Below are positions 11,520 through 26,995 of a DNA stretch of 64,000 nt, piece by piece. The stretch comes from Oscillospiraceae bacterium (GTDB lineage: Bacteria; Bacillota; Clostridia; Oscillospirales; UBA929), in the NCBI GenBank assembly GCA_031265355.1, contig JAISCT010000060.1:1-64000 (forward strand), read 5' to 3'. Position numbers and translations under genes: made by a program. The first letter of the stretch is position 1, and each line of letters starts with the position of its first letter. The notes under the pieces are model-generated. The model made no database searches and had not been told where the DNA came from. It worked only from the letters and a program-made list of their open reading frames with translations.

Positions 11520-12587
11520 ATGAAACATGTCAAATTGTGGGCGTGGCTGCTGGCCTTGGCGCTGCTTCTGGCGCTGCCTGGGTGTGCGGCCGGGGAGACG
11601 GCCGACGACGCCGCGCCGCCCGCCTCGCAGGGCGGTGTGGCGCAGGACGACGGCGGGGACGAGCTGTTCACGCTCCGGATGATCACGATCACCGCCTTCA
11701 ATGAACTCAACGTGGCGGACGCGCTGGGTTTCTTTCGTGACGAGGGCATTCAAATCGAGTACATCGGCGCGCTGAACAAGAGCGTCACGGAGCACCAGCT
11801 CCTCACCCAGGGCGAAGTCGACGTCTTTGTCCAGTCCCATCCGCCGGTGGTGGCGCAGGCGCGGCTCGCCGGTATGAAGTCCATCGCCGTGACCACCGGT
11901 ATCGTCGACCATGAGGAGTACACGCATGTGCGCTACCTGGTGCAAAAGGACAGCCCGATTCAGTCGCTGGACGAGGCCGTCGGGCACAAGGTGGCCATCA
12001 CCCGCATCAACCCGTGCGAGGACGGCTATGTGAAATATTATTTAAAGACCCGGGGGCTCGACCCGGAGGGCGCCGAGTTTGTGACGCTGGAGGCCGGTAC
12101 GCTGGAACAGTCGCTGGTGCAGGGCCTGGTCGACATCACCACCTCCCATCCACCCCACGCGGGCGCCGCGCTGGCGACCGGTGAGGTGCGTGAGATCTTC
12201 AACACTTGGGAGATGTTCGGAAGCCCCGGCGCCGGCCTCTCCACACGCGGATTCAGGGAGGATTTCATCCAAGAGCACCCGGACGTGGTGCAGGGCTTCG
12301 TGAACGCGCTGTACCGGGCGCGGGTCTGGATCAACAATAACATCGACGAGGCCAAGGCAATCGTCGCTGACTTTTTGGACCTCGACCCGTCGGATCTCAG
12401 TTCGTTTTACTTCGACGAAAACAAGAACATAGACCCCGCTTACATCGAAAAGTGGTTTGAGATCTCCGAGGAGATTGACCTCTGGGAACCGGGGGACATC
12501 CTCCCCACAGACATCTACACAAACGATTTCGTCCCGGCGGATATCCCCGAGAGCGACGCCACGCGCCACTGGGAGGGCGGCGCATAG
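11520..12587 (+). CDS. Lipoprotein solute-binding protein of the NMT1/TauA/SsuA type
   Basis: 355 aa; ATG with a GTGGGGG-type site. A lipoprotein signal ends in LPGC, then an acidic linker. The mature protein shows the NMT1/ABC-nitrate-sulfonate fold: NVADALGFFRDEGI, EVDVFVQSHPP, the GHKVAITRINP segment and a long helical tail. Such proteins deliver small organic ions (sulfonates, nitrate, pyrimidine precursors, aromatic acids) to an ABC importer. No permease or ATPase gene is next to it, so it must share a transporter encoded elsewhere. It converges on the amidohydrolase operon, so a functional link is possible but unproven. Confidence 0.85.
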   Translation: MKHVKLWAWLLALALLLALPGCAAGETADDAAPPASQGGVAQDDGGDELFTLRMITITAFNELNVADALGFFRDEGIQIEYIGALNKSVTEHQLLTQGEVDVFVQSHPPVVAQARLAGMKSIAVTTGIVDHEEYTHVRYLVQKDSPIQSLDEAVGHKVAITRINPCEDGYVKYYLKTRGLDPEGAEFVTLEAGTLEQSLVQGLVDITTSHPPHAGAALATGEVREIFNTWEMFGSPGAGLSTRGFREDFIQEHPDVVQGFVNALYRARVWINNNIDEAKAIVADFLDLDPSDLSSFYFDENKNIDPAYIEKWFEISEEIDLWEPGDILPTDIYTNDFVPADIPESDATRHWEGGA

Positions 12588-12742: not shown

Positions 12743-13654
12743 TCAAAAATCCAGTTTCATCAGGGTGGCCATGTTGGCGCAGGCCACTTTGTCGAGGACT
12801 TCGGGGGCGTCGGGGAAGGCGCGGTCCAGTTCGGCGATGGAGTAGTGGAAGGAACCGAAGGGCACATCCGTGCCGAAGAGGATCTTATCCTCGCCCAGCA
12901 GCTCGACGCCCTGACGCATCCGTGCGGCGGAGCACATTGAGGTGTCCGTGTATACATGGGAAAGCCCCCGCACCATCGGGTAGAACTCCTCCACATCGCT
13001 GCAGCAATGCGCCACGATGATCTTCACGTCACCCCACCGGCGACAGAAGTCCACCACGCGGGAGACCTCGCTGTACGCCGGTGTGCTCACGCGGCTGTGG
13101 GGGCTGTCCGAGGTGTAGTAGGGGTTGTCGCCGCAGTGCGTGAGAACCGGCAGATCGGCCTCGCGGAACACCGCCATGGCCGCGTCTACGCGCGGGTCGC
13201 TCAGCGGGACGTTTTGGATCGTCGGGTGCAGCTTCAGCCCTTTGGCGCCGAGGGCGACGTCGCGGCGCAGCTTGTCTTGCATCTCGCCCACCGGCATGTC
13301 AAACACACAGGTCGTAAACGGAATGATGCGGGGTTCGAGCTTCGACGCGGCCAGATACTCCTCAAAGGTCTGGTTCGGCCAGATGGGCAGCATAACAATG
13401 CCGACCACCTCCGGGTGTTCGTCCAGTTCCTTCGTCAAGTTCTCAAGCGTCCACTCCCAACTGCGGTACTGGCCGGCGCGTATCAGATCCTCGACCTCCT
13501 TGGGAATCAACGGGATCGTGTAGCCGGAGCGCTCGCAGTCGATGAACGGGTCCTCGTAGTCACCCTTTTGGATGTTCGTCTTGAATGTGATGTTCTTATT
13601 CCCGTGGAAGATATCGCCGATGTGGGCGTGAGAATCGATAATGCGTTTGGCCAT
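12743..13654 (-). CDS. Amidohydrolase-2 family TIM-barrel metalloenzyme (paralogue 1)
   Basis: The ATG at 13654 follows GGAGGG at 6 nt; the frame extends upstream but without a site. 303 aa. Metal-ligand motifs of the amidohydrolase-2 family are present: HAH in DSHAHIGD near residue 8, GLKLHP near 160, LTHCGD, VAHCCS and GTDVPF. Members are hydrolases or non-oxidative decarboxylases of small acids; the substrate cannot be read from sequence. It is paralogous to the next gene over its whole length (shared FEEYLAASKLEPR and GAKGLKLHP). It is last in a run aldehyde dehydrogenase-ptb-buk-amidohydrolase-amidohydrolase, so it probably prepares or clears a substrate of that pathway. Confidence 0.85.
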   Translation of the reverse strand: MAKRIIDSHAHIGDIFHGNKNITFKTNIQKGDYEDPFIDCERSGYTIPLIPKEVEDLIRAGQYRSWEWTLENLTKELDEHPEVVGIVMLPIWPNQTFEEYLAASKLEPRIIPFTTCVFDMPVGEMQDKLRRDVALGAKGLKLHPTIQNVPLSDPRVDAAMAVFREADLPVLTHCGDNPYYTSDSPHSRVSTPAYSEVSRVVDFCRRWGDVKIIVAHCCSDVEEFYPMVRGLSHVYTDTSMCSAARMRQGVELLGEDKILFGTDVPFGSFHYSIAELDRAFPDAPEVLDKVACANMATLMKLDF

Positions 13655-13749
13655 GATTTTCCCTCCTGATGGGCGCCGCGTCCGGCGCTGCCTGGTCGGC
13701 GCGGTGAGGGGCGCCCTTTTGTCGTTCCGGCGCCCGGCGGGCGAGCGTC

Positions 13750-14652
13750 TCACAGGTGCAGCAGACGCGCGATGTTGCCGTAGAAGACCTTATCCTTTGT
13801 GACGGGGTCGTCCGCGAAGGCTCTGTCGATGACCTCGACACAGAATTTTTCATTGACAAAGGGGTAGTCCGTGCCGAACATCACGCGGTCCGCTCCCATG
13901 ATGTTTACGGCTTTGCGGGCCAGGTCCACCGAACAGAACGAGGTGTCGGCGTAGACGTTCTCCAGACCGCGGCAGCCCTCCATCAGGACGTCCGCGTCGG
14001 CCGCGCAGTGGGCGGCCACCAACACCTGGTCCTTCCGGAGCCGGGCGAACGAGAAGAAGTCCGCCATCGCGCCGTACTTGGAGTTTACGGGGTAGTTCTT
14101 GTCCGCGGAATAGTACGTCCCCTCGCCAACATGGATCACCACCGGCAGATCCACCTCGGCAAACACCTCCGCCGCGGCCACCATGCGGTCGTCCATCAAG
14201 TGAACGTTTTGCAAAATTGGGTGGAGCTTCAGCCCCTTGGCGCCCCGGCCGACATCACGGCGCAGCTTGGCCGTCATCTCGTCCAGCGGCAGCGTCATGT
14301 CCGCGGCCGTGAAGGGGATGAGGCGCGGCTCGAGCTTGGAGGCGGCCAGGTACTCCTCGAAGGTCGTGTTCGGCAGCACGGGCAGCAGCACGATACCGGC
14401 CATCTCGCACTCGTCCAACTGGCGCACGGTGTTCTCCAGCGTGGCCTCCAGGCAGCGGAACTGCCCGCCGTCGATGACAAGCTGCAGATCGCGCGGGTCG
14501 TCCGTAAAGAGAGGCTTTTCAAACAGAGACTCCTCCAGCTCGATGAAACGGTCCTCATAGTCGCCTTTCTTGACGTTCGTCTTGAAACTGATGTTCCGAT
14601 TTTCGTGGAAAATGTCTCCCAGGTGCGCGTGCGCGTCGATGATCCTTCGCAT
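13750..14652 (-). CDS. Amidohydrolase-2 family TIM-barrel metalloenzyme (paralogue 2)
   Basis: ATG at 14652 preceded by GGAGGATC. 300 aa. Motifs: HAH in DAHAHLGD (near 8), GLKLHP, VIHVGEG, AAHCAA and GTDYPF. The third motif reads IHVGEG where its neighbour has THCGD, so the two active sites differ and the enzymes may act on different but related compounds or form a hetero-oligomer. Gap of 95 bp to the next gene, 67 bp from butyrate kinase. Confidence 0.85.
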   Translation of the reverse strand: MRRIIDAHAHLGDIFHENRNISFKTNVKKGDYEDRFIELEESLFEKPLFTDDPRDLQLVIDGGQFRCLEATLENTVRQLDECEMAGIVLLPVLPNTTFEEYLAASKLEPRLIPFTAADMTLPLDEMTAKLRRDVGRGAKGLKLHPILQNVHLMDDRMVAAAEVFAEVDLPVVIHVGEGTYYSADKNYPVNSKYGAMADFFSFARLRKDQVLVAAHCAADADVLMEGCRGLENVYADTSFCSVDLARKAVNIMGADRVMFGTDYPFVNEKFCVEVIDRAFADDPVTKDKVFYGNIARLLHL

Positions 14653-14719
14653 AAGGGATCCTCCTTCCGAGATTCCAAATTTTTACATATAATTTTGTGT
14701 GCGATCGGGCATGCTGGGA

Positions 14720-15790
14720 TCAGAGGACCTTTTGGAAGGTGTGGGCCGTCTCTTCGCCGCGCAGGACGCGCAGTGCGCCGAGCGCGAGCGCCTCCATCTC
14801 GTTTTCCCCCGCCATCACCTCCACCGGCGCGAGGAAACCGACGCGCGCCGTTATCCAGCCCGTCAGACGTTTCGAGTGAGCGAGGCCGCCGGTGAGAAGA
14901 ACGGCGTCGAGCCGGCCGTTCACCACGACGGACAGTTTCGCGATGTTCTTGGCCACCTCCAGCGCCATGGCCTCAAACACGAGCTGCGCGTGCGCGTCGC
15001 CCGCGACAATGCGTTTTTCCACTTCGCGGGCGTCCTTGGTACCGAGGTGGGCGGCCAGACCGGCGTTGTGGTGCACGCGGTCCATGCCGGCCCGCCTGTC
15101 TCCGCCGTTTTCGGCCATCATGTCGATCACCTGAAAGATCGGCAGTCCCCCCGAGCGCTCGGGGGAAAAGGGACCCTCGTCGTCCGAAATCATGTCGATG
15201 ATGCGGCCCTCGCGGTGCAGCGTGAGGGTGATCCCCCCGCCCAAGTGCGCCACCACCACCGTGAGCGCACCGTACGGCCGTCCGATTTGTTTCGCGTAGC
15301 GCAGCGCCGTGGCCCGCATGTTCAGGTTGTGGCCCATGCCTTTGCGGCGCATCTCCGGCAGCCCGGTGAGACGGACCAGCGGGATGAGCTCGTCCACCGT
15401 CACCGGGTCGTACACGTAGGCCTTGACGCCGACCTCGTCTGCGATGGATTTTGCGATGGGCGCCGCCAGGTTGGAGGCGTGGTTGTTTTGGGGCTTGTGA
15501 CAAAGCTGCCAGACCATGTCGTCGTTTACCTCGTATGCACCGGCGCGGACGGGCGGGAGCAGGCCGCCACGGGCGACGACGGCCGTCAGGTCATGGCGGT
15601 CCACGCCGCGCGCCTCCATCTCCGCCCGCACCAGATCCCGGCGGAAGGCGTATTGATCCCCTATCTCCCGGAAGGGGGCGAGCGCCTCCGCGGTGTGTTC
15701 GAGCGCGGCGGTAAACAGCGGCGTCTCTCCGTCGTAGACCGCGATCTTCGTCGAGGTGGAGCCCGGGTTTAGCACCAAAATCTTTTCCAT
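14720..15790 (-). CDS. buk: Butyrate kinase
   Basis: 356 aa from the ATG at 15790, the usual length. Typical acetokinase-family signatures: ILVLNPGSTSTKIAVY at the N-terminus, VVARGGLLPP, HNLNMRA, VVVAHLGGG and the C-terminal DAVLLTGGLAHS. It catalyses acyl phosphate + ADP to carboxylate + ATP (butyryl- and related short-chain acyl groups). Placed after ptb, it completes acyl-CoA to acid conversion with substrate-level phosphorylation. Two hairpins fill the 134-bp gap to ptb. The frame extends upstream to ~15925 but without a start fitting the family. Confidence 0.93.
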   Translation of the reverse strand: MEKILVLNPGSTSTKIAVYDGETPLFTAALEHTAEALAPFREIGDQYAFRRDLVRAEMEARGVDRHDLTAVVARGGLLPPVRAGAYEVNDDMVWQLCHKPQNNHASNLAAPIAKSIADEVGVKAYVYDPVTVDELIPLVRLTGLPEMRRKGMGHNLNMRATALRYAKQIGRPYGALTVVVAHLGGGITLTLHREGRIIDMISDDEGPFSPERSGGLPIFQVIDMMAENGGDRRAGMDRVHHNAGLAAHLGTKDAREVEKRIVAGDAHAQLVFEAMALEVAKNIAKLSVVVNGRLDAVLLTGGLAHSKRLTGWITARVGFLAPVEVMAGENEMEALALGALRVLRGEETAHTFQKVL

Positions 15791-15812
15791 AAGACGCCTG
15801 TCCTCTCCTAAT

Positions 15813-15875
15813 GTGGGTTGCACCTGCAACCCACAACCCAAATTCTTGTTTTTTGTTGCCGCTTCGCGGCAACAA
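15813..15875. repeat. Two hairpins in the ptb-buk intergenic gap
   Basis: GTGGGTTGCA (15813-15822) pairs with 15825-15834, and TTGTTGCCGC (15853-15862) pairs with 15866-15875 around a TTC loop. Neither has a U-tract on the coding strand, so they may tune mRNA stability or the ptb:buk ratio rather than terminate. Confidence 0.6.
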
Positions 15876-15924
15876 GGTACTATAGCACTTCGTGATGCGC
15901 GCGGTGTCCGCCGCGCCTGCCGCA

Positions 15925-16854
15925 TCAGTCGGCCGGGGTACCGTCGGCGACGGCGCAGGCCAGCACCAACGCGTTGTATTTTTCCTCGGCGGACGAACCG
16001 CGCGATGTGACGATGATGGGGCAGACCGCCCCCATTACGAGTCCGGCCATCCGGGCGCCGGCCATCTCCACCAGACTCTTGCCCAGGATGTTGCCCGTGT
16101 GGATATTCGACACGACAAGGATATCGGCGTCGCCGGCACAGGGGCTCCGATATCCTTTTGTTTCGGCGCGCGCACGCACCAAGGCGAGATCCAGGGAGAT
16201 CGGCCCTTCCACAATGCAGTGCCGGATCTCGCCGTCCCGGTTCATCTCTCTCAGCGCCGCCGCCTCCACCGTCTCGGGCATGCGCGGATTCACCTTCTCC
16301 ACCGCGGCCAGGATCCCGACCTTCGGTGTGTCGTTGCCCAACGCGCGCATCACGCGCACGGCGTTGTCGATGATGTGCTTCTTCTGTTCCATCGTCGGAT
16401 ACGGCAGCATGCCGCCGTCCGTCGTGATGAGCAGCTTGTGGTACGCGGGGATCTCGTTTACCGAGAGGTGCGACATCACACCGCCGAGAGAGAGCCCCGC
16501 CTCCTTGTGCAGCACCGCGCGCAGCAGTTCACTGGTCTCCATATGGCCTTTCATCAGAACCTGCGCCCGGCCCTCACGAATCAGCGCGACCCCCGCCTGC
16601 GCGGCGGCGTCCGTGGTCTCTGCATCGAGGATCCGATCGTCGGAGACCGTGCGGCCCAGCCGTTCGGCCGCGGCGCGGATCTCTGCGGCGCGGCCGACGA
16701 GAAGCGAACCCAGCAGCCCCTCCGCCTCCGCCTGGAACAGCGCCGCCAGCGCGTGTTCGTCCGCCGCGCAGACAAGCGCTACCGTCCGCCGCGCCGGCGC
16801 GGCTTTTACCCGCCGCGCCACTTCTGAAAACGATTTGATTGTCACGCCGCTCAC
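15925..16854 (-). CDS. ptb: Phosphate butyryltransferase
   Basis: 309 aa from the GTG at 16854, which overlaps the TGA of the upstream gene (GTGA) and follows GGGAGG; a GTG at 16845 is an alternative start. Family signatures: QVLMKGHMET, LSHLSVNEIPAYHKLLITTD, GILAAVEKVNPRMPET, EGPISLDLAL and DILVVSNIHTGNILGK. It catalyses acyl-CoA + Pi to acyl phosphate + CoA. It is translationally coupled to the aldehyde dehydrogenase and is followed by buk. Confidence 0.93.
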   Translation of the reverse strand: MSGVTIKSFSEVARRVKAAPARRTVALVCAADEHALAALFQAEAEGLLGSLLVGRAAEIRAAAERLGRTVSDDRILDAETTDAAAQAGVALIREGRAQVLMKGHMETSELLRAVLHKEAGLSLGGVMSHLSVNEIPAYHKLLITTDGGMLPYPTMEQKKHIIDNAVRVMRALGNDTPKVGILAAVEKVNPRMPETVEAAALREMNRDGEIRHCIVEGPISLDLALVRARAETKGYRSPCAGDADILVVSNIHTGNILGKSLVEMAGARMAGLVMGAVCPIIVTSRGSSAEEKYNALVLACAVADGTPAD

Positions 16855-18230
16855 GCCTCCTCCCAAATTTGTTCGACGGTGGGGATGTCCTCTTCCCGGC
16901 GCATCCAGCCGATGCGCGAGATGTTGATCAGATGTTCAAACGTCAGGTTCTCTGAGATCGAGTTGTTGCCCCAGGAACCGCAGCCCAGCGTACTGGTGGG
17001 GTTGAAGCCGTTGGCCAGCGCGGGGTTTGCGGCAAAGATGCCGGGCTGATTCACCAGCAGCCGGCTCACAGGGAGCTGCGTGCCGCAGTACTCGGCCTTT
17101 TTCTCGTCGTTTGTATGGACGACGGCGGTGTGACCCGCGCCCTCATAGCGCAAATTGGTCTTCGCGATCTCCACCGCCTGCTCAAAGGTGTCATAGGGAA
17201 AAGCCACCAGCACCGGGCACATCTTTTCGCCGCACAGCGGGTCGGCCGCGCCGATCCGTTCGGAATCTCCCAGCAGCAGGATGGCGGCGGTCTCCGGCGG
17301 GATCTCCACACCGGCCTCCCGGGCGATGGCCTGGGCATTCTGACCGACAAGGCGCCGGTTGATGGGTCCGCCGTTTGGAAACAGCGCCGTACGGAATTTT
17401 TCCACCTCGTTCGGATCTTCAACGTAGTGGGCTCCGCTGGCCTGCAGCGCCGCAACGACCTCGCCCTGGTCCGTCCGCGGCAGGATGACGGACTGGTTCC
17501 CGGCGCAGATGAGGCCGTTGTCGAAGCTGCGCCCGAGGACGATCTGGGCGGCGGCCTGCGCGTAGTCAACGTCTTTGTCGAGGATGGTCTGCACATTGCC
17601 GGGTCCTACGCCGAAGGCCGGACGGCCGCTTGAGTACGCCGCCTGCACCATCGCAGCGCCGCCTGTCGCGATGATCACATCGCAGCGCCGCATCAGGAGC
17701 TGCGTGCACTCGATCGAGGGTTCCTCGACGCACTGGATCAGGTGTTCGGGCGCGCCCGCCTCCGCCAGCGCGCGGGTCAGGATCTCTACGGTGTGGCGCG
17801 TGGTCCGCTTGGCCCGGGGGTGCGGCGCCACGATCAGCACATTGCGCCCCTTGAGGGCGAAGGCCGCGTTGAAGAGCACCGTGATGTTTGGGTTTGTCGT
17901 GGGCGCCACCGAGCAGAGGACGCCCTTGGGAGAAGCGACGTAGGTCAGGCGCTTCTCAGGATCGGAGCCGATGACGCCCACCGACCGCTTTCTTTTCAGC
18001 GCATACCAGATGCCGTCGGGGGAAGTCGTGTTCTTCTCGAGTTTCGACGCGTAGTCCCCAAGGCCGGTCTCCTCGACAACCTCGCGGGAGAGCGCCTCCG
18101 CATGCGCTTTGAAGGCGAGGAGCATCATCCTGAGGCAGGCGTCGACGCGCGCCTGATCAAAGACGGAGAAGGCCGCAAGCGCCGTACGCGCCCTGTGAAG
18201 CATACCGGCAACAATTTGTTCGTTATCCAT
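16851..18230 (-). CDS. CoA-acylating aldehyde dehydrogenase
   Basis: 459 aa; ATG at 18230 with AAAAGGAG upstream. The catalytic Cys lies in NGLICAGNQSV (~residue 240). The C-terminus (TLGCGSWGNNSISENLTF, then HLINI) is the hallmark of the acylating AdhE/EutE/SucD branch, not of acid-forming dehydrogenases. It would convert an aldehyde + CoA + NAD(P)+ to acyl-CoA, or the reverse. With ptb and buk it makes an energy-conserving aldehyde-to-acid route. Sulfoacetaldehyde and succinate-semialdehyde enzymes belong to the same branch, so the aldehyde is not fixed by sequence. No microcompartment genes or targeting peptide are seen. Confidence 0.88.
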   Translation of the reverse strand: MDNEQIVAGMLHRARTALAAFSVFDQARVDACLRMMLLAFKAHAEALSREVVEETGLGDYASKLEKNTTSPDGIWYALKRKRSVGVIGSDPEKRLTYVASPKGVLCSVAPTTNPNITVLFNAAFALKGRNVLIVAPHPRAKRTTRHTVEILTRALAEAGAPEHLIQCVEEPSIECTQLLMRRCDVIIATGGAAMVQAAYSSGRPAFGVGPGNVQTILDKDVDYAQAAAQIVLGRSFDNGLICAGNQSVILPRTDQGEVVAALQASGAHYVEDPNEVEKFRTALFPNGGPINRRLVGQNAQAIAREAGVEIPPETAAILLLGDSERIGAADPLCGEKMCPVLVAFPYDTFEQAVEIAKTNLRYEGAGHTAVVHTNDEKKAEYCGTQLPVSRLLVNQPGIFAANPALANGFNPTSTLGCGSWGNNSISENLTFEHLINISRIGWMRREEDIPTVEQIWEEA

Positions 18231-18348
18231 AATTTTTTAGCTCCTTTTCGTGGTATTTGCATCATTCTGGCCCCTTCATCGTACCACGCTTTGTATATGC
18301 GCGATTGTATTTAAAGGCGCCTCTCTCAGGGCGCCTCTCCATCGAAAA

Positions 18349-18396
18349 CGCCCCGGAGGAAAAGCGGCCAAAGCGGTCCGCATTGCCTCCGGGGCG
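18349..18396 (-). terminator. Terminator of the AraC regulator gene
   Basis: CGCCCCGGAGG against CCTCCGGGGCG (18349-18359 / 18386-18396); on the minus strand the stem is followed by TTTTCG, 20 bp after the stop at 18416. Confidence 0.75.
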
Positions 18397-18415
18397 CTGG
18401 GAGCCGTGCATGTCC

Positions 18416-19273
18416 TCACGAAAGGGCCGCCGCGCGCGCGCGGGCTGAACGGAATGTCCGGCGGAACCTGTCCGGCGGCATCATGGCAAACCGCTTGAAG
18501 TCCCGTATCAGATGCGCCTGGTCAAAATACCCGTTGTTGAACACAAGGGACGAGACCCCGACATCCTTCTCTTTCAGAAGATCCTTGAGCACGCTTTGGA
18601 AGCGCATGACGCCGCTGTACTGTTTGGGAGAACAGCCGTGCACTTCTTTGAAACGCTCCCGGCAGTACCGCTCGGAGTAGCCCGTCACCTGCCGCATGTT
18701 GTTAAACAGGACATTGCCCCTGGAGGAGCAGATCATTACGGTGAAGTAATCGATGAAGGTAGGATCGTAGTCGTGGTTTGTCATATGTCGGTCGGCAAAC
18801 GTGCAGAACAGACGAATCCGTTCTTCAAAATCGCCGGTTGCACGCATCTGCGCCAGCAGTTCCTCCGTCATGGGGTAGGCCTCGCAAAAGGATACGGCAG
18901 AATCGGCGAGTTCGCTCAGTTTGAATTTCTCGCACTTGAGTCCGAGGTTTGAGTACGGTTTGAACCCGAAATACTCGGTGTCCGGTTTGACGGTGAGCAT
19001 CTTAGGCTCAAAGAACGCCCCCGAGAAGATCGCGTCGGGATTTTGAAAACCGCACTCGATAAAGACATTCGAGCACGCGTCCGGCAGGATGCGAATCTGA
19101 CACAGTTCCGGATCCGGGCTGGACCGAAACTGATAACAGAGCGCGCCCTTTTTAATACCGACGCCGTTCCAGTTGATCGCCTTCTCCCGGTAATCTCGGA
19201 CTCGGATGTTGAGAAGGGGCTGAAAGGGGGGCGAATTGTCCTGAAGATCTCGAAGAACATCTGCCACAATCAT
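18416..19273 (-). CDS. AraC-family transcriptional regulator
   Basis: 285 aa. The C-terminal ~100 residues hold two helix-turn-helix motifs (MRQVTGYSERYCRERFKEVH and SSLVFNNGYFDQAHLIRDFK, then MMPPDRFRRTFR), the AraC/XylS arrangement. The N-terminal ~150 residues look like a cupin-type sensor. It lies immediately upstream of, and co-directional with, the aldehyde dehydrogenase-ptb-buk-amidohydrolase run and has its own terminator, so it is the natural candidate regulator. The inducer is unknown. Confidence 0.85.
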   Translation of the reverse strand: MIVADVLRDLQDNSPPFQPLLNIRVRDYREKAINWNGVGIKKGALCYQFRSSPDPELCQIRILPDACSNVFIECGFQNPDAIFSGAFFEPKMLTVKPDTEYFGFKPYSNLGLKCEKFKLSELADSAVSFCEAYPMTEELLAQMRATGDFEERIRLFCTFADRHMTNHDYDPTFIDYFTVMICSSRGNVLFNNMRQVTGYSERYCRERFKEVHGCSPKQYSGVMRFQSVLKDLLKEKDVGVSSLVFNNGYFDQAHLIRDFKRFAMMPPDRFRRTFRSARARAAALS

Positions 19274-19485: not shown

Positions 19486-19860
19486 TCAGACGGTTGCAAA
19501 CAATTTCGAAATGATGCGCCACCGCCCATCCGTTTTGATCAAGTGGAAGAAGTCCACGAGCCGCCCCTCGCTGCGAAAGCCTGTCTCGGACAGCGTCACC
19601 GAGGCAACGCCGCCCTCGATGTGAATATGCTCCACCTCGGCCTGGTAGGGGTCTTTGTTTGAAGCCATCGACGGAAGACCGCCAATGTCGGCGATGAAGC
19701 CGGAGGGATCCGCCAGGAGCACATTCGGCCCCAGGTACCCGTTCATGACGGCCTTCTCGTGGAATACGTCCTTCAGCAGATCCACATCCGCCCGGTACGT
19801 GCCCTCTTTGTAATTTTGGATTACTTGCAGGATCGCTTTTGTCTCTACATGGTTGTTCAT
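19486..19860 (-). CDS. NTF2-fold / putative lumazine-binding family protein
   Basis: 124 aa; ATG at 19860 with AAGGAGG upstream. The pattern (ILQVIQNYKEGTYRADVDLL, then FHEKAVMNGYLG, GRLVDFFHLIKTDGRWRII) matches the PF12893-type SnoaL/NTF2 fold: a helical start, a cone-shaped beta sheet and the terminal GRWRII strand. Members are small-molecule-binding or isomerase-like; the function is unknown. Its position between the AraC gene and the divergent MFS permease suggests a role in the same pathway. Confidence 0.75.
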   Translation of the reverse strand: MNNHVETKAILQVIQNYKEGTYRADVDLLKDVFHEKAVMNGYLGPNVLLADPSGFIADIGGLPSMASNKDPYQAEVEHIHIEGGVASVTLSETGFRSEGRLVDFFHLIKTDGRWRIISKLFATV

Positions 19861-20217: not shown

Positions 20218-21420
20218 ATGCAGAAGAAAACAAGCAGCATCGCCCTAATCATCGCCATCCTGGCCCTGGCCTGCCTGGCTCAGATGAACGACATGGTTTC
20301 CGTCATCATGGCCGATCTCGACGCCGCGTTCCCCACCGCCGGCCCGATTGCCATCCAGTACGTCATGCAGATGGGTATGATAGGCGGGTTCCCTATCTCT
20401 CTCCTCGTCGGTTTCCTGACGCACAAATTCCGCATCAAGTCCATGCTCCTTGTCGGCGCCGCGTGCATCATCGTCGGCGGTCTCACGCCGCTCTTCATCC
20501 ACGGACATCTGGCCGTCTTGTACGTCTGCAATTTCCTCGTGGGCGCCGGTCAGGGCTTCATGCTCCCGCTCATCACCACACTGATCATGCAGCACTTCGA
20601 AGACCGCCGCCAGCACACCCTGCTCGGTCTCAACGCCACCTTCAACGCGGGCGCCTCCGCGCTGCTGCTGCTGGCCGCGGGCCCTCTGGCCGTCAGAGGC
20701 TGGGTCAACATCTTCTACCTCTACCTGATGGCCGTGCCCATGTTCCTCGTCGCACTTTTCTGCCTGCCGAAAGGTGAACTGGCGCCCCCGCCCCCGGCCG
20801 GCGCCGCCAAAAAGGTCCCCGTGCCTGTGAAGGGCTGGATCCAATGCATCCTCGTCGTGCTGATGTTCGTCTGTTACGTCACGTTCCCGCTCAACATCTC
20901 TCTGTACATCAGCGCGGAGAGCCTCGGCGACGCCACGGTCTCCGGTCTCGCGATGTTTGTCACCACCGTCGTCGGCGCGGGCGTCGGCGTCGTGTTCCAG
21001 CCGCTCATTCGCCGGGTGAAGCTCTATGTCGGCGCCTTGGCTTCCCTCTTCGGCCTGGCCGGCATGCTGGCCGTCGCCCTTTTCCACGGCATCTTCTTCA
21101 TCTATCTCTCCGCCGTGTTGCTCGGCATCTTCTTCGGGGTCCAGATCAGCGGCGGCAGCTATGTGGTCGGGCGCCTCTGCACCTCCGACCAGATAGCCCC
21201 CACACTCTCGATCTCAATGAGTTTCATGACGCTTGGCGTCATCCTCTCTCCCATCCTCATCAATGCGCTCACCGCACTTTGGGGCGGGCTCGGCGCCAAA
21301 GGCGCGTTCACCACCTCGGCCATTCTCTTCGGCATCATCCTGGCGCTGGAGATCGTCTGGAGCGCCTACCTCACAAAAACCTGCCCAAACCCAGCGCCGG
21401 AGGCGCGCCCCGCCGTCTGA
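20218..21420 (+). CDS. MFS transporter
   Basis: ATG at 20218 with AGAAGGGA upstream; the frame opens earlier (20143) but the charged extension is not membrane-like. 400 aa with about 12 hydrophobic segments in two six-helix halves around a basic loop (PAGAAKKVPVPVKGW). The helix 2-3 loop (GFLTHKFRIKS) matches the MFS G-x-L-(D/T)-(R/H) signature. It should move a small solute using the proton gradient; the neighbouring pathway makes an organic acid or related substrate plausible cargo. Confidence 0.85.
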   Translation: MQKKTSSIALIIAILALACLAQMNDMVSVIMADLDAAFPTAGPIAIQYVMQMGMIGGFPISLLVGFLTHKFRIKSMLLVGAACIIVGGLTPLFIHGHLAVLYVCNFLVGAGQGFMLPLITTLIMQHFEDRRQHTLLGLNATFNAGASALLLLAAGPLAVRGWVNIFYLYLMAVPMFLVALFCLPKGELAPPPPAGAAKKVPVPVKGWIQCILVVLMFVCYVTFPLNISLYISAESLGDATVSGLAMFVTTVVGAGVGVVFQPLIRRVKLYVGALASLFGLAGMLAVALFHGIFFIYLSAVLLGIFFGVQISGGSYVVGRLCTSDQIAPTLSISMSFMTLGVILSPILINALTALWGGLGAKGAFTTSAILFGIILALEIVWSAYLTKTCPNPAPEARPAV

Positions 21421-25787: not shown

Positions 25788-25837
25788 AAAAACGGATCCG
25801 GCGCGGCCTGTCACAGGGTCGCGCCGGATCCGTTTTT
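25788..25837. terminator. Bidirectional terminator overlapping the alcohol dehydrogenase 3' end
   Basis: AACGGATCCGGCGCG pairs with CGCGCCGGATCCGTT (right arm from 25820) around a 14-nt loop, flanked by A and T runs. The right arm lies inside the coding sequence of the convergent gene and its stop codon is in the loop. Confidence 0.85.
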
Positions 25838-26995
25838 GGCATCGCACCATATGGCCTCCAGCAGCCCCGCCGCCTCGGGTTCTCCCACGGGGCGCGGGTT
25901 GAGCGTGGCAAAGGGCTCGGCCGCCACGGCGGCGGCCAGGGCGGCGATGTCGGGGGACTCCGGTAGATAGCGCGCCAGCGGCCGCAGACCCAGGCGCGCA
26001 CCGAAGGCGCGGTAAGCGTCGCGCGTCTTCGCGCCGATCTCTTTCGGACTTTCCCGCCCGGTGAACGAGGCGCCCAGCAGTGTGCCGAGACGGCGTGTCT
26101 CCTCGGGCACGGCGGGGGCGTTGAACGCCAGCACCCACGGTTCCGCGTAGGCGCAGGCGGCCCCGTGGGGGATGTGAAAACGCGCGCCGAGTACGTGGGC
26201 AATCGAATGCCCCACATGGGCGCCGTGGTTGGCCAGCAGACAGCCGGCCATCGTGGACGCGATCGCCATCTGCGCGCGGGCCTCGCGGTGCGCGCCGTCG
26301 CGCACGGCCACCGGCAGCCAGGCGACCACCCGCGCGGCCATCGCCTCCGCGAGGGGCAGCGTGAAGGGGCTGCGGCGGACGGTGGTGGCCGTCTCACAGA
26401 GGTGCGCCAGCACATCCAACCCCGTGTGGGCGGTGAGGACGGGGGGCATGCCCGCCATGAGACCCGGGTCGACCAGGGCGTACTCCGACATGCCGTCGAC
26501 CGCCAGGATGGGCACCTTGGTCCCCGTCTCCGTGTCGGTGATGATCAGTCCGTCCGAAGTCTCGCTGCCCGTACCGGCGGTGGTGGGGACGGAAAGCAGC
26601 CCCGGGCTGCGCGCCGGCGGCTGCTCGGCGTACGCCAGGGCCAGAATAGGACCCCGGTTGAACCGCAGCAAATTGATGCCCTTGGCCGTGTCGAGACTGC
26701 TCCCGCCGCCGAGACCGATCACGGCGTCGCAGCCGGCCTCGCGGCACAGCCGCGCGCCCTCGTCCACCAGATGAGCCGGCGGATCCGGTTCCACCCGACC
26801 GAAGAGAACATAGGCAACGCCGGCGCCGTCCAGCGCGGCGGTCAGTTTGCCGAGGAGCCCCGCGCCGCGCACGCCGTCGTCGAAGACAACCAGCGCACGG
26901 CTGCCTCCCATCGCGCGGACGACCGCGCCGGCCGACCTGACCGCGCCGTCTCCATAGATCACTTTGACTTTTTGATGAAATGTGATGTCCGTCAT
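25811..26995 (-). CDS. Iron-containing (group III) alcohol dehydrogenase
   Basis: 394 aa; ATG at 26995 with AAGGAG upstream. GLGGGSSLDTAKGI is the NAD(P)-binding signature, PTTAGTGSETS follows, and the metal ligands are recognisable in HTGLDVLAHLCE and GHSIAHVLGARFHIPHG. It reversibly interconverts alcohols and aldehydes/ketones. The family includes 1,3-propanediol, butanol and maleylacetate enzymes, so the substrate is open. It is monocistronic and divergent from the nucleotidase gene. Confidence 0.88.
   Translation of the reverse strand: MTDITFHQKVKVIYGDGAVRSAGAVVRAMGGSRALVVFDDGVRGAGLLGKLTAALDGAGVAYVLFGRVEPDPPAHLVDEGARLCREAGCDAVIGLGGGSSLDTAKGINLLRFNRGPILALAYAEQPPARSPGLLSVPTTAGTGSETSDGLIITDTETGTKVPILAVDGMSEYALVDPGLMAGMPPVLTAHTGLDVLAHLCETATTVRRSPFTLPLAEAMAARVVAWLPVAVRDGAHREARAQMAIASTMAGCLLANHGAHVGHSIAHVLGARFHIPHGAACAYAEPWVLAFNAPAVPEETRRLGTLLGASFTGRESPKEIGAKTRDAYRAFGARLGLRPLARYLPESPDIAALAAAVAAEPFATLNPRPVGEPEAAGLLEAIWCDAKNGSGATL

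Follow-up and report, generated by a model that had tools for sequence, protein, structure and literature searches.

A candidate AraC-controlled operon joining Amidohydro_2 proteins to an acylating aldehyde dehydrogenase, Ptb and Buk in an Oscillospiraceae bacterium

The operon and its surroundings

We found, in an Oscillospiraceae bacterium, a run of genes for an AraC-family regulator, an acylating aldehyde dehydrogenase, a phosphotransacylase, an acid kinase and two amidohydrolases, which is co-inherited, with a patchy distribution, in several other bacterial lineages. Judging from the sequences, we lean towards the reading that this is an AraC-controlled catabolic operon, by which a small molecule would be hydrolysed to an aldehyde and the aldehyde dismutated with substrate-level phosphorylation; the substrate is probably one small acidic molecule. 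The window, that is, the whole stretch of 64,000 nucleotides analysed here (G000:C60:1-64000, 60% G+C), belongs to a 3.08-Mb draft genome which is 95.8% complete. The genus relatives of this genome include Oscillospiraceae MAGs, whose termite-gut origin is our own reading of the isolate labels. The features are the following (coordinates in the window, strand, description and supporting match):

11520..12587, plus strand: NMT1/SsuA-type solute-binding lipoprotein (PF09084, 66.2 bits)
12743..13657, minus strand: AmhA, Amidohydro_2 metallo-hydrolase by family (PF04909, 73.6 bits)
13750..14652, minus strand: AmhB, Amidohydro_2 metallo-hydrolase by family, extra paralogue (PF04909, 70.1 bits)
14720..15793, minus strand: acid kinase of the butyrate kinase family, Buk (TIGR02707, 402.6 bits)
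15807..15882, no strand: dispersed repeat of about 75 bp, containing two stem-loops, between Buk and Ptb (repeat copies in the same genome)
15925..16848, minus strand: phosphotransacylase of the phosphate butyryltransferase family, Ptb (PF01515, 136.7 bits)
16851..18230, minus strand: CoA-acylating aldehyde dehydrogenase, ALDH (52% to C. kluyveri SucD; signature ICAGNQ)
18416..19273, minus strand: AraC-family regulator (HTH_18, 54.8 bits)
19486..19860, minus strand: NTF2-like protein, Lumazine_bd_2 (PF12893, 72.5 bits)
20227..21420, plus strand: MFS transporter (PF07690, 86.0 bits)
25811..26995, minus strand: iron-dependent alcohol dehydrogenase, FeADH (PF00465, 143.9 bits)

Profile matches place the AraC, ALDH, Ptb, Buk and two amidohydrolase genes exactly where the original prediction had put them, and its claim of a single run with an AraC regulator is borne out: the six genes lie on the minus strand, in the transcription order AraC, ALDH, Ptb, Buk, AmhB, AmhA, with successive gaps of 185, 2, 131, 67 and 92 bp. 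The NTF2-like gene stands ahead of AraC and the MFS gene is divergent. A scan for promoters and terminators gave a result no better than chance, and a search of Rfam returned zero matches. The dispersed repeat between Buk and Ptb has further copies in the same genome, 98.7-100% identical, and is outside the pathway.

Co-inheritance of the cluster

By scanning genome contigs with an alignment of the amidohydrolases (Amh) we obtained 68 loci. Genes for ALDH, Ptb, Buk and AraC stand no more than about 10 kb from Amh in a Spirochaetaceae bin (L029, which may be mis-binned), in another Oscillospiraceae bacterium (L032), in a Family XIII bacterium (L034), in Lutispora (L036 with L118) and in Pseudoflavonifractor (L039). 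The Lutispora cluster was pieced together from two contigs, the ends of which carry the halves of one split YtcJ gene. An NTF2-like gene is also present in the clusters of all these lineages, in L039 as a weak 28% match only. The original prediction had taken the genes for one unit, and this check of neighbourhood conservation agrees with it: they are co-inherited, the ALDH-Ptb-Buk-Amh-AraC set recurring in five other lineages. Considering this recurrence and the single rare clade formed by the ALDHs (see below), we concluded that the co-inheritance is patchy and that the cluster was probably transferred horizontally.

AraC orthologues of the same layout adjoin the cluster at L026, L031, L032, L033, L034, L039, L118, L128 and L129, and AraC is probably a local activator. 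NTF2-like orthologues, 36-74% identical, adjoin it in nine relatives, and the MFS protein of the window is 62% identical to one within the L029 cluster. The lipoprotein, MFS and NTF2-like genes had all been described as flanks; their positions are right, but the NTF2-like and MFS genes are conserved members of the cluster and not mere flanks, while the lipoprotein is linked to it only in the genus. The fuller clusters of the relatives contain in addition an OYE-type Fe-S flavoenzyme (a relative of BaiCD and of bilirubin reductase, with scores below the cut-offs), a YtcJ-type amidohydrolase, an OFA-type carrier and other MFS carriers.

The distribution has its irregularities. In the sister genome G004 (L026), the contig is collinear with ours but without ALDH, AmhA, MFS and nearly all of Buk, a loss which reflects either decay or an assembly fault. 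Clusters of Enterococcus (4/105 genomes) and of Vagococcus hold one Amh gene or two, along with AraC, NTF2 and MFS; they have no adjacent ALDH-Ptb-Buk, and this counts against the preferred reading. In Enterococcus, the Amh cluster co-occurs with an ALDH-Ptb-Buk cassette which is not linked to it (4/4 versus 14/101), an association which was discarded, as it is confounded by kinship. Carriers available in culture include Lutispora saccharofermentans, Enterococcus alishanensis and Vagococcus acidifermentans.

The amidohydrolases

AmhA and AmhB had been presented as paralogues with different active-site residues. They are paralogues indeed (51% identical, both above the PF04909 cut-off of 26.4), but their metal-site residues are identical, and the consistent differences between them (e.g. 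A117C, A217C, Y263V, N267S) lie elsewhere. In 55 Amh sequences (AmhA, AmhB and 53 relatives), D6, H8, H10, R66, K142, H174, H215 and D262 are invariant. In the AF2 model of AmhB (pLDDT 95.9), a His/Lys/His/His/Asp set sits at the ends of the barrel strands: strand 1 is followed directly by H8 and H10, strand 4 contains K142, strand 5 ends with H174, strand 6 is followed by H215, and strand 8 has D262. We take this arrangement to be the binuclear amidohydrolase layout. In this superfamily, a lysine in strand beta-4 accompanies binuclear hydrolase sites. Since this lysine is invariant in Amh and the metal site has such a layout, while ACMSD carries Gln in place of Lys142, we hold with modest confidence that Amh would rather be a hydrolase than a decarboxylase.

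Should Amh nevertheless be decarboxylases of the ACMSD/resorcylate type, the aldehyde, or a precursor of it, would arise from a carboxylic acid by loss of CO2, and the remaining pathway would be unchanged. The named PDB sequence matches and many of the top fold matches are ACMSD, gamma-resorcylate, carboxyvanillate and IDCase decarboxylases, and the invariant Arg66 fits an enzyme which binds a carboxylate. These decarboxylases and 2-pyrone-4,6-dicarboxylate lactonase have the same fold and family (Amidohydro_2) as Amh. However, the fold search returned Amidohydro_2 members only, at 14-17% identity and with mixed reactions, including the lactonase and the C-C hydrolase LigY, and all 55 Amh sequences have in strand beta-4 the lysine that ACMSD lacks. 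Hence, we regard decarboxylation as rather unlikely.

In the tree, AmhA groups with its counterparts from L029, L034, L032 and L033, and its orthologues in other clusters are single-copy; AmhB, 83% identical to the Spirochaetaceae copy, is an added paralogue. The Enterococcus Amh pair is separate from the AmhA/AmhB pair. Distant relatives (about 28-35% identity; Desulfobacteria, Syntrophomonas) were set aside as a guide to the reaction, the neighbourhoods examined being inconsistent. The Amh relatives of Eggerthellaceae have LysR and MFS alone as neighbours, a context which suggests an acid substrate.

The aldehyde dehydrogenase and the alcohol dehydrogenase

The PDB sequence closest to the window ALDH is SucD of Clostridium kluyveri (8cei; 506.6 bits, 52% identity), by a wide margin over the next PDB match (308.8 bits). 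Both have the acylating ALDH fold (SucD: PDB 8cei-8cek), and the window ALDH has kept the catalytic residues of SucD (Cys242, His and Thr). One could thus suppose that the aldehyde is succinic semialdehyde, as in C. kluyveri, with a SucD and an FeADH resembling 4-hydroxybutyrate dehydrogenase. According to the structure paper on SucD, Lys70 and Ser243 hold the distal carboxylate (PMC10249356). These residues are replaced by Ser and Ala in the window ALDH, and neither is kept in any of the six cluster ALDHs; because of this replacement, succinic semialdehyde is probably not the aldehyde. Furthermore, FeADH scores 176 bits against NF058672 (4-hydroxybutyrate dehydrogenase), the cut-off of which is 500. 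We therefore consider succinic semialdehyde improbable as the aldehyde of this pathway. The window ALDH also differs from SucD in its linkage to Ptb-Buk and amidohydrolases; C. kluyveri pairs SucD with CoA transferases. The cluster ALDHs form a single clade in the tree (support 1.000), and the signature ICAGNQ around Cys242 is common to this whole subfamily. The type is rare, being found at E<=1e-150 in 1/391 genomes of the class, namely that of the window.

The gene of FeADH lies 6.5 kb from AraC, beyond the MFS gene and a GH97-like gene; that this 4-kb gene parts it from the operon counts against the preferred reading. The nearest relatives of FeADH in this analysis, 47-50% identical, are FeADHs near Amh in Subdoligranulum (L024), Pseudoflavonifractor (L039) and Galloscillospira (L040), which adjoin Amh directly in L024 and lie one gene further in L039 and L040. 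Since this type is rare in the order (1/394 genomes at E<=1e-90, the window's own), yet stands beside Amh in three relatives, FeADH is probably a member of the cluster and the reductive arm which the original prediction had missed.

As every step is reversible in principle, the same enzymes might also work the other way round, Buk and Ptb activating an acid with ATP, and ALDH and FeADH disposing of electrons by reducing this acid to an alcohol; SucD does act reductively in C. kluyveri (PMC10249356). Such a reverse route would cost ATP, and it leaves the conserved hydrolases, the NTF2-like protein and the importers unexplained, so that we give it little credence. The pathway had been called energy-conserving: the enzyme set this calls for is there, by homology, but the gain of ATP presupposes the oxidative direction, which lies beyond proof by sequence.

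Ptb, Buk and the lipoprotein

The predicted route from ALDH through Ptb to Buk proved complete by homology, with the catalytic residues of ALDH in place. Buk scores 402.6 bits with TIGR02707, above the cut-off of 289.1, and Ptb 296.0 bits with TIGR02706, under the butyryl-specific cut-off of 410.5. Since the genome has another Buk (G000:C11, 480.3 bits), the Buk of the window looks like a dedicated copy. That Ptb-Buk would be an ordinary butyrate-forming step and the amidohydrolases unrelated neighbours is very unlikely: Buk does pass the butyrate kinase cut-off, but the second Buk and the low score of Ptb speak against it, and the association with Amh, kept across families and possibly phyla, already makes it unlikely.

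Two further observations count against the preferred reading. In the trees, the window Buk groups with L036/L039 and the window ALDH with L029/L034, and this conflict means that parts of the cluster were exchanged. Moreover, ALDH-Ptb-Buk is found without Amh in Enterococcus (L115) and Vagococcus (L116 and L117); it is therefore a recurrent module, which need not act on the product of Amh. Its partners there are TetR and a zinc-type ADH (L115, L116, L142) or an aminotransferase (L117). The TetR-ALDH-Ptb-Buk-ADH cassette of Enterococcus and Vagococcus (for example in E. gilvus pCR1A, L142) has ALDH, Ptb and Buk in the order of the window and ALDHs 47-48% identical to ours, but it has TetR where the window has AraC, an ADH of the zinc type and the ALDH signature CACQQ, and it lacks an amidohydrolase.

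The lipoprotein is 89-91% identical in the loci of the window's genus (L025, L026) and absent from the clusters of other taxa; its membership in the cluster is doubtful. No ABC ATPase or permease was recognised among the ORFs adjoining it in the window. We rejected as highly improbable a sulfonate pathway, by which sulfoacetaldehyde derived from taurine or isethionate would yield sulfoacetate with a gain of ATP: the matches of the lipoprotein to the SsuA subfamily and of ALDH to SauS, at 74.9 and 371.7 bits, are both far under the cut-offs (163.5 and, for SauS, NF047625, 600), the lipoprotein is not kept beyond the genus, and a sulfonate enzyme was recognised in none of the relatives' clusters.

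The proposed pathway

Coming back to the catabolic, oxidative reading, we infer from the gene content the following order of steps, in which the NTF2-like protein would also have a role. The MFS carrier would probably import the substrate. Hydrolysis of the substrate or of an intermediate to the aldehyde would fall to AmhA and to AmhB, a second copy acquired later. The acylating ALDH would convert the aldehyde into acyl-CoA with formation of NAD(P)H, Ptb would convert acyl-CoA into acyl-phosphate, and Buk would release the free acid with formation of ATP. FeADH would reduce part of the aldehyde to the alcohol, re-oxidising NAD(P)H, so that the net reaction would be a dismutation of the aldehyde. 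In the relatives, the OYE-type reductase and the YtcJ-type amidohydrolase would probably act upstream; the OYE gene fits a reduction ahead of hydrolysis.

The chemical logic is that of the Pdu and Eut dismutations of propanediol and ethanolamine, in which an acylating ALDH, a phosphotransacylase, an acid kinase and an FeADH turn the aldehyde into acid with ATP and into alcohol. The window differs in having Ptb and Buk family enzymes for PduL and PduW, in the expected source of the aldehyde (a hydrolase, and not a diol dehydratase or an ammonia lyase), and in lacking a shell: the BMC shell protein (PF00936) has 0 matches in the window genome at its 95.8% completeness. A microcompartment pathway was rejected, as the shell genes are absent from the genome. 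Another likeness is offered by the enamidase of nicotinate fermentation (Eubacterium barkeri), an enzyme of the amidohydrolase superfamily which, after a reductase step, opens a reduced ring to give an aldehyde-acid and ammonia; we know of no Ptb-Buk route described for it. It belongs to a different amidohydrolase family from Amh, and would be a precedent for a ring-opening amidohydrolase giving an aldehyde.

Novelty and meaning

The original prediction did not recognise the arrangement from any described pathway, and our full-text literature searches, whose coverage leaves out most subscription journals, likewise gave none with this gene set. As far as searches of this incomplete literature show, the ALDH-Ptb-Buk arm is of a known kind and the cluster headed by amidohydrolases is undescribed. 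A bolder reading, which we put forward tentatively and would not yet call probable, is that the cluster would encode an undescribed pathway of anaerobic metabolism, spread by horizontal transfer. Hydrolases of a new Amidohydro_2 family would open the ring of a reduced compound and so give an aldehyde, to be dismutated by ALDH-Ptb-Buk and FeADH with a yield of ATP. The OYE and YtcJ enzymes would act first in the fuller versions. The pathway would be one of gut clostridia and possibly of spirochaetes, and enterococci would have a related set for the upstream part.

The cluster points to an unnamed fermentable compound of termite and other guts. The gene set is compact and testable: besides a dedicated regulator, it has a single ALDH and no more than two hydrolases. 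The inducer or substrate, once found, would give functions to the Amh family, to the NTF2-like protein and to a subfamily of acylating ALDHs across several bacterial families.

Operon integrity in related genomes

The gap between the phosphotransacylase (Ptb) and butyrate kinase family (Buk) genes is occupied by the following element:

15807-15882: dispersed repeat, about 75 bp, with two strong stem-loops

Copies of this repeat are found at loci L001, L137 and L146 of the same genome with 98.7-100% identity, and diverged copies on the sister contig L025. In the sister genome G004, contig C6 (L026, 2617-6154) is collinear, without AmhA (one of the two Amidohydro_2 metallo-hydrolase paralogues, Amh), the MFS transporter, the CoA-acylating aldehyde dehydrogenase (ALDH) and nearly all of Buk; the beginning of an ALDH is joined in frame to Ptb. 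The missing genes and this fusion reflect either gene decay or an assembly fault.

ALDH and Amh genes in other settings

A cassette TetR-ALDH-Ptb-Buk-alcohol dehydrogenase-Mpv17-like, a further putative aldehyde route, is repeated in Enterococcus and Vagococcus (L115, L116, L142), in Enterococcus on megaplasmids too. In Vagococcus acidifermentans (L117, 5126-11307), ALDH, Ptb and Buk form an uninterrupted row with a permease-like gene and a class III aminotransferase gene, which suggests an aldehyde route starting from an amine.

In two Oscillospiraceae (L024, 9833-14102; L037, 70-1961), a GlcNAc-kinase-like gene immediately precedes Amh; in the former, a Subdoligranulum, it follows a GlmS/NagB-like SIS gene, and an iron-dependent alcohol dehydrogenase gene follows Amh. 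In view of these neighbours, Amh may also have a role in an amino-sugar-like context. In Eggerthellaceae (L041-L045), the only companions of Amh are a regulator of the LysR family and an MFS carrier, which may be of the aromatic-acid type; this is a minimal setting in which to seek the Amh substrate.
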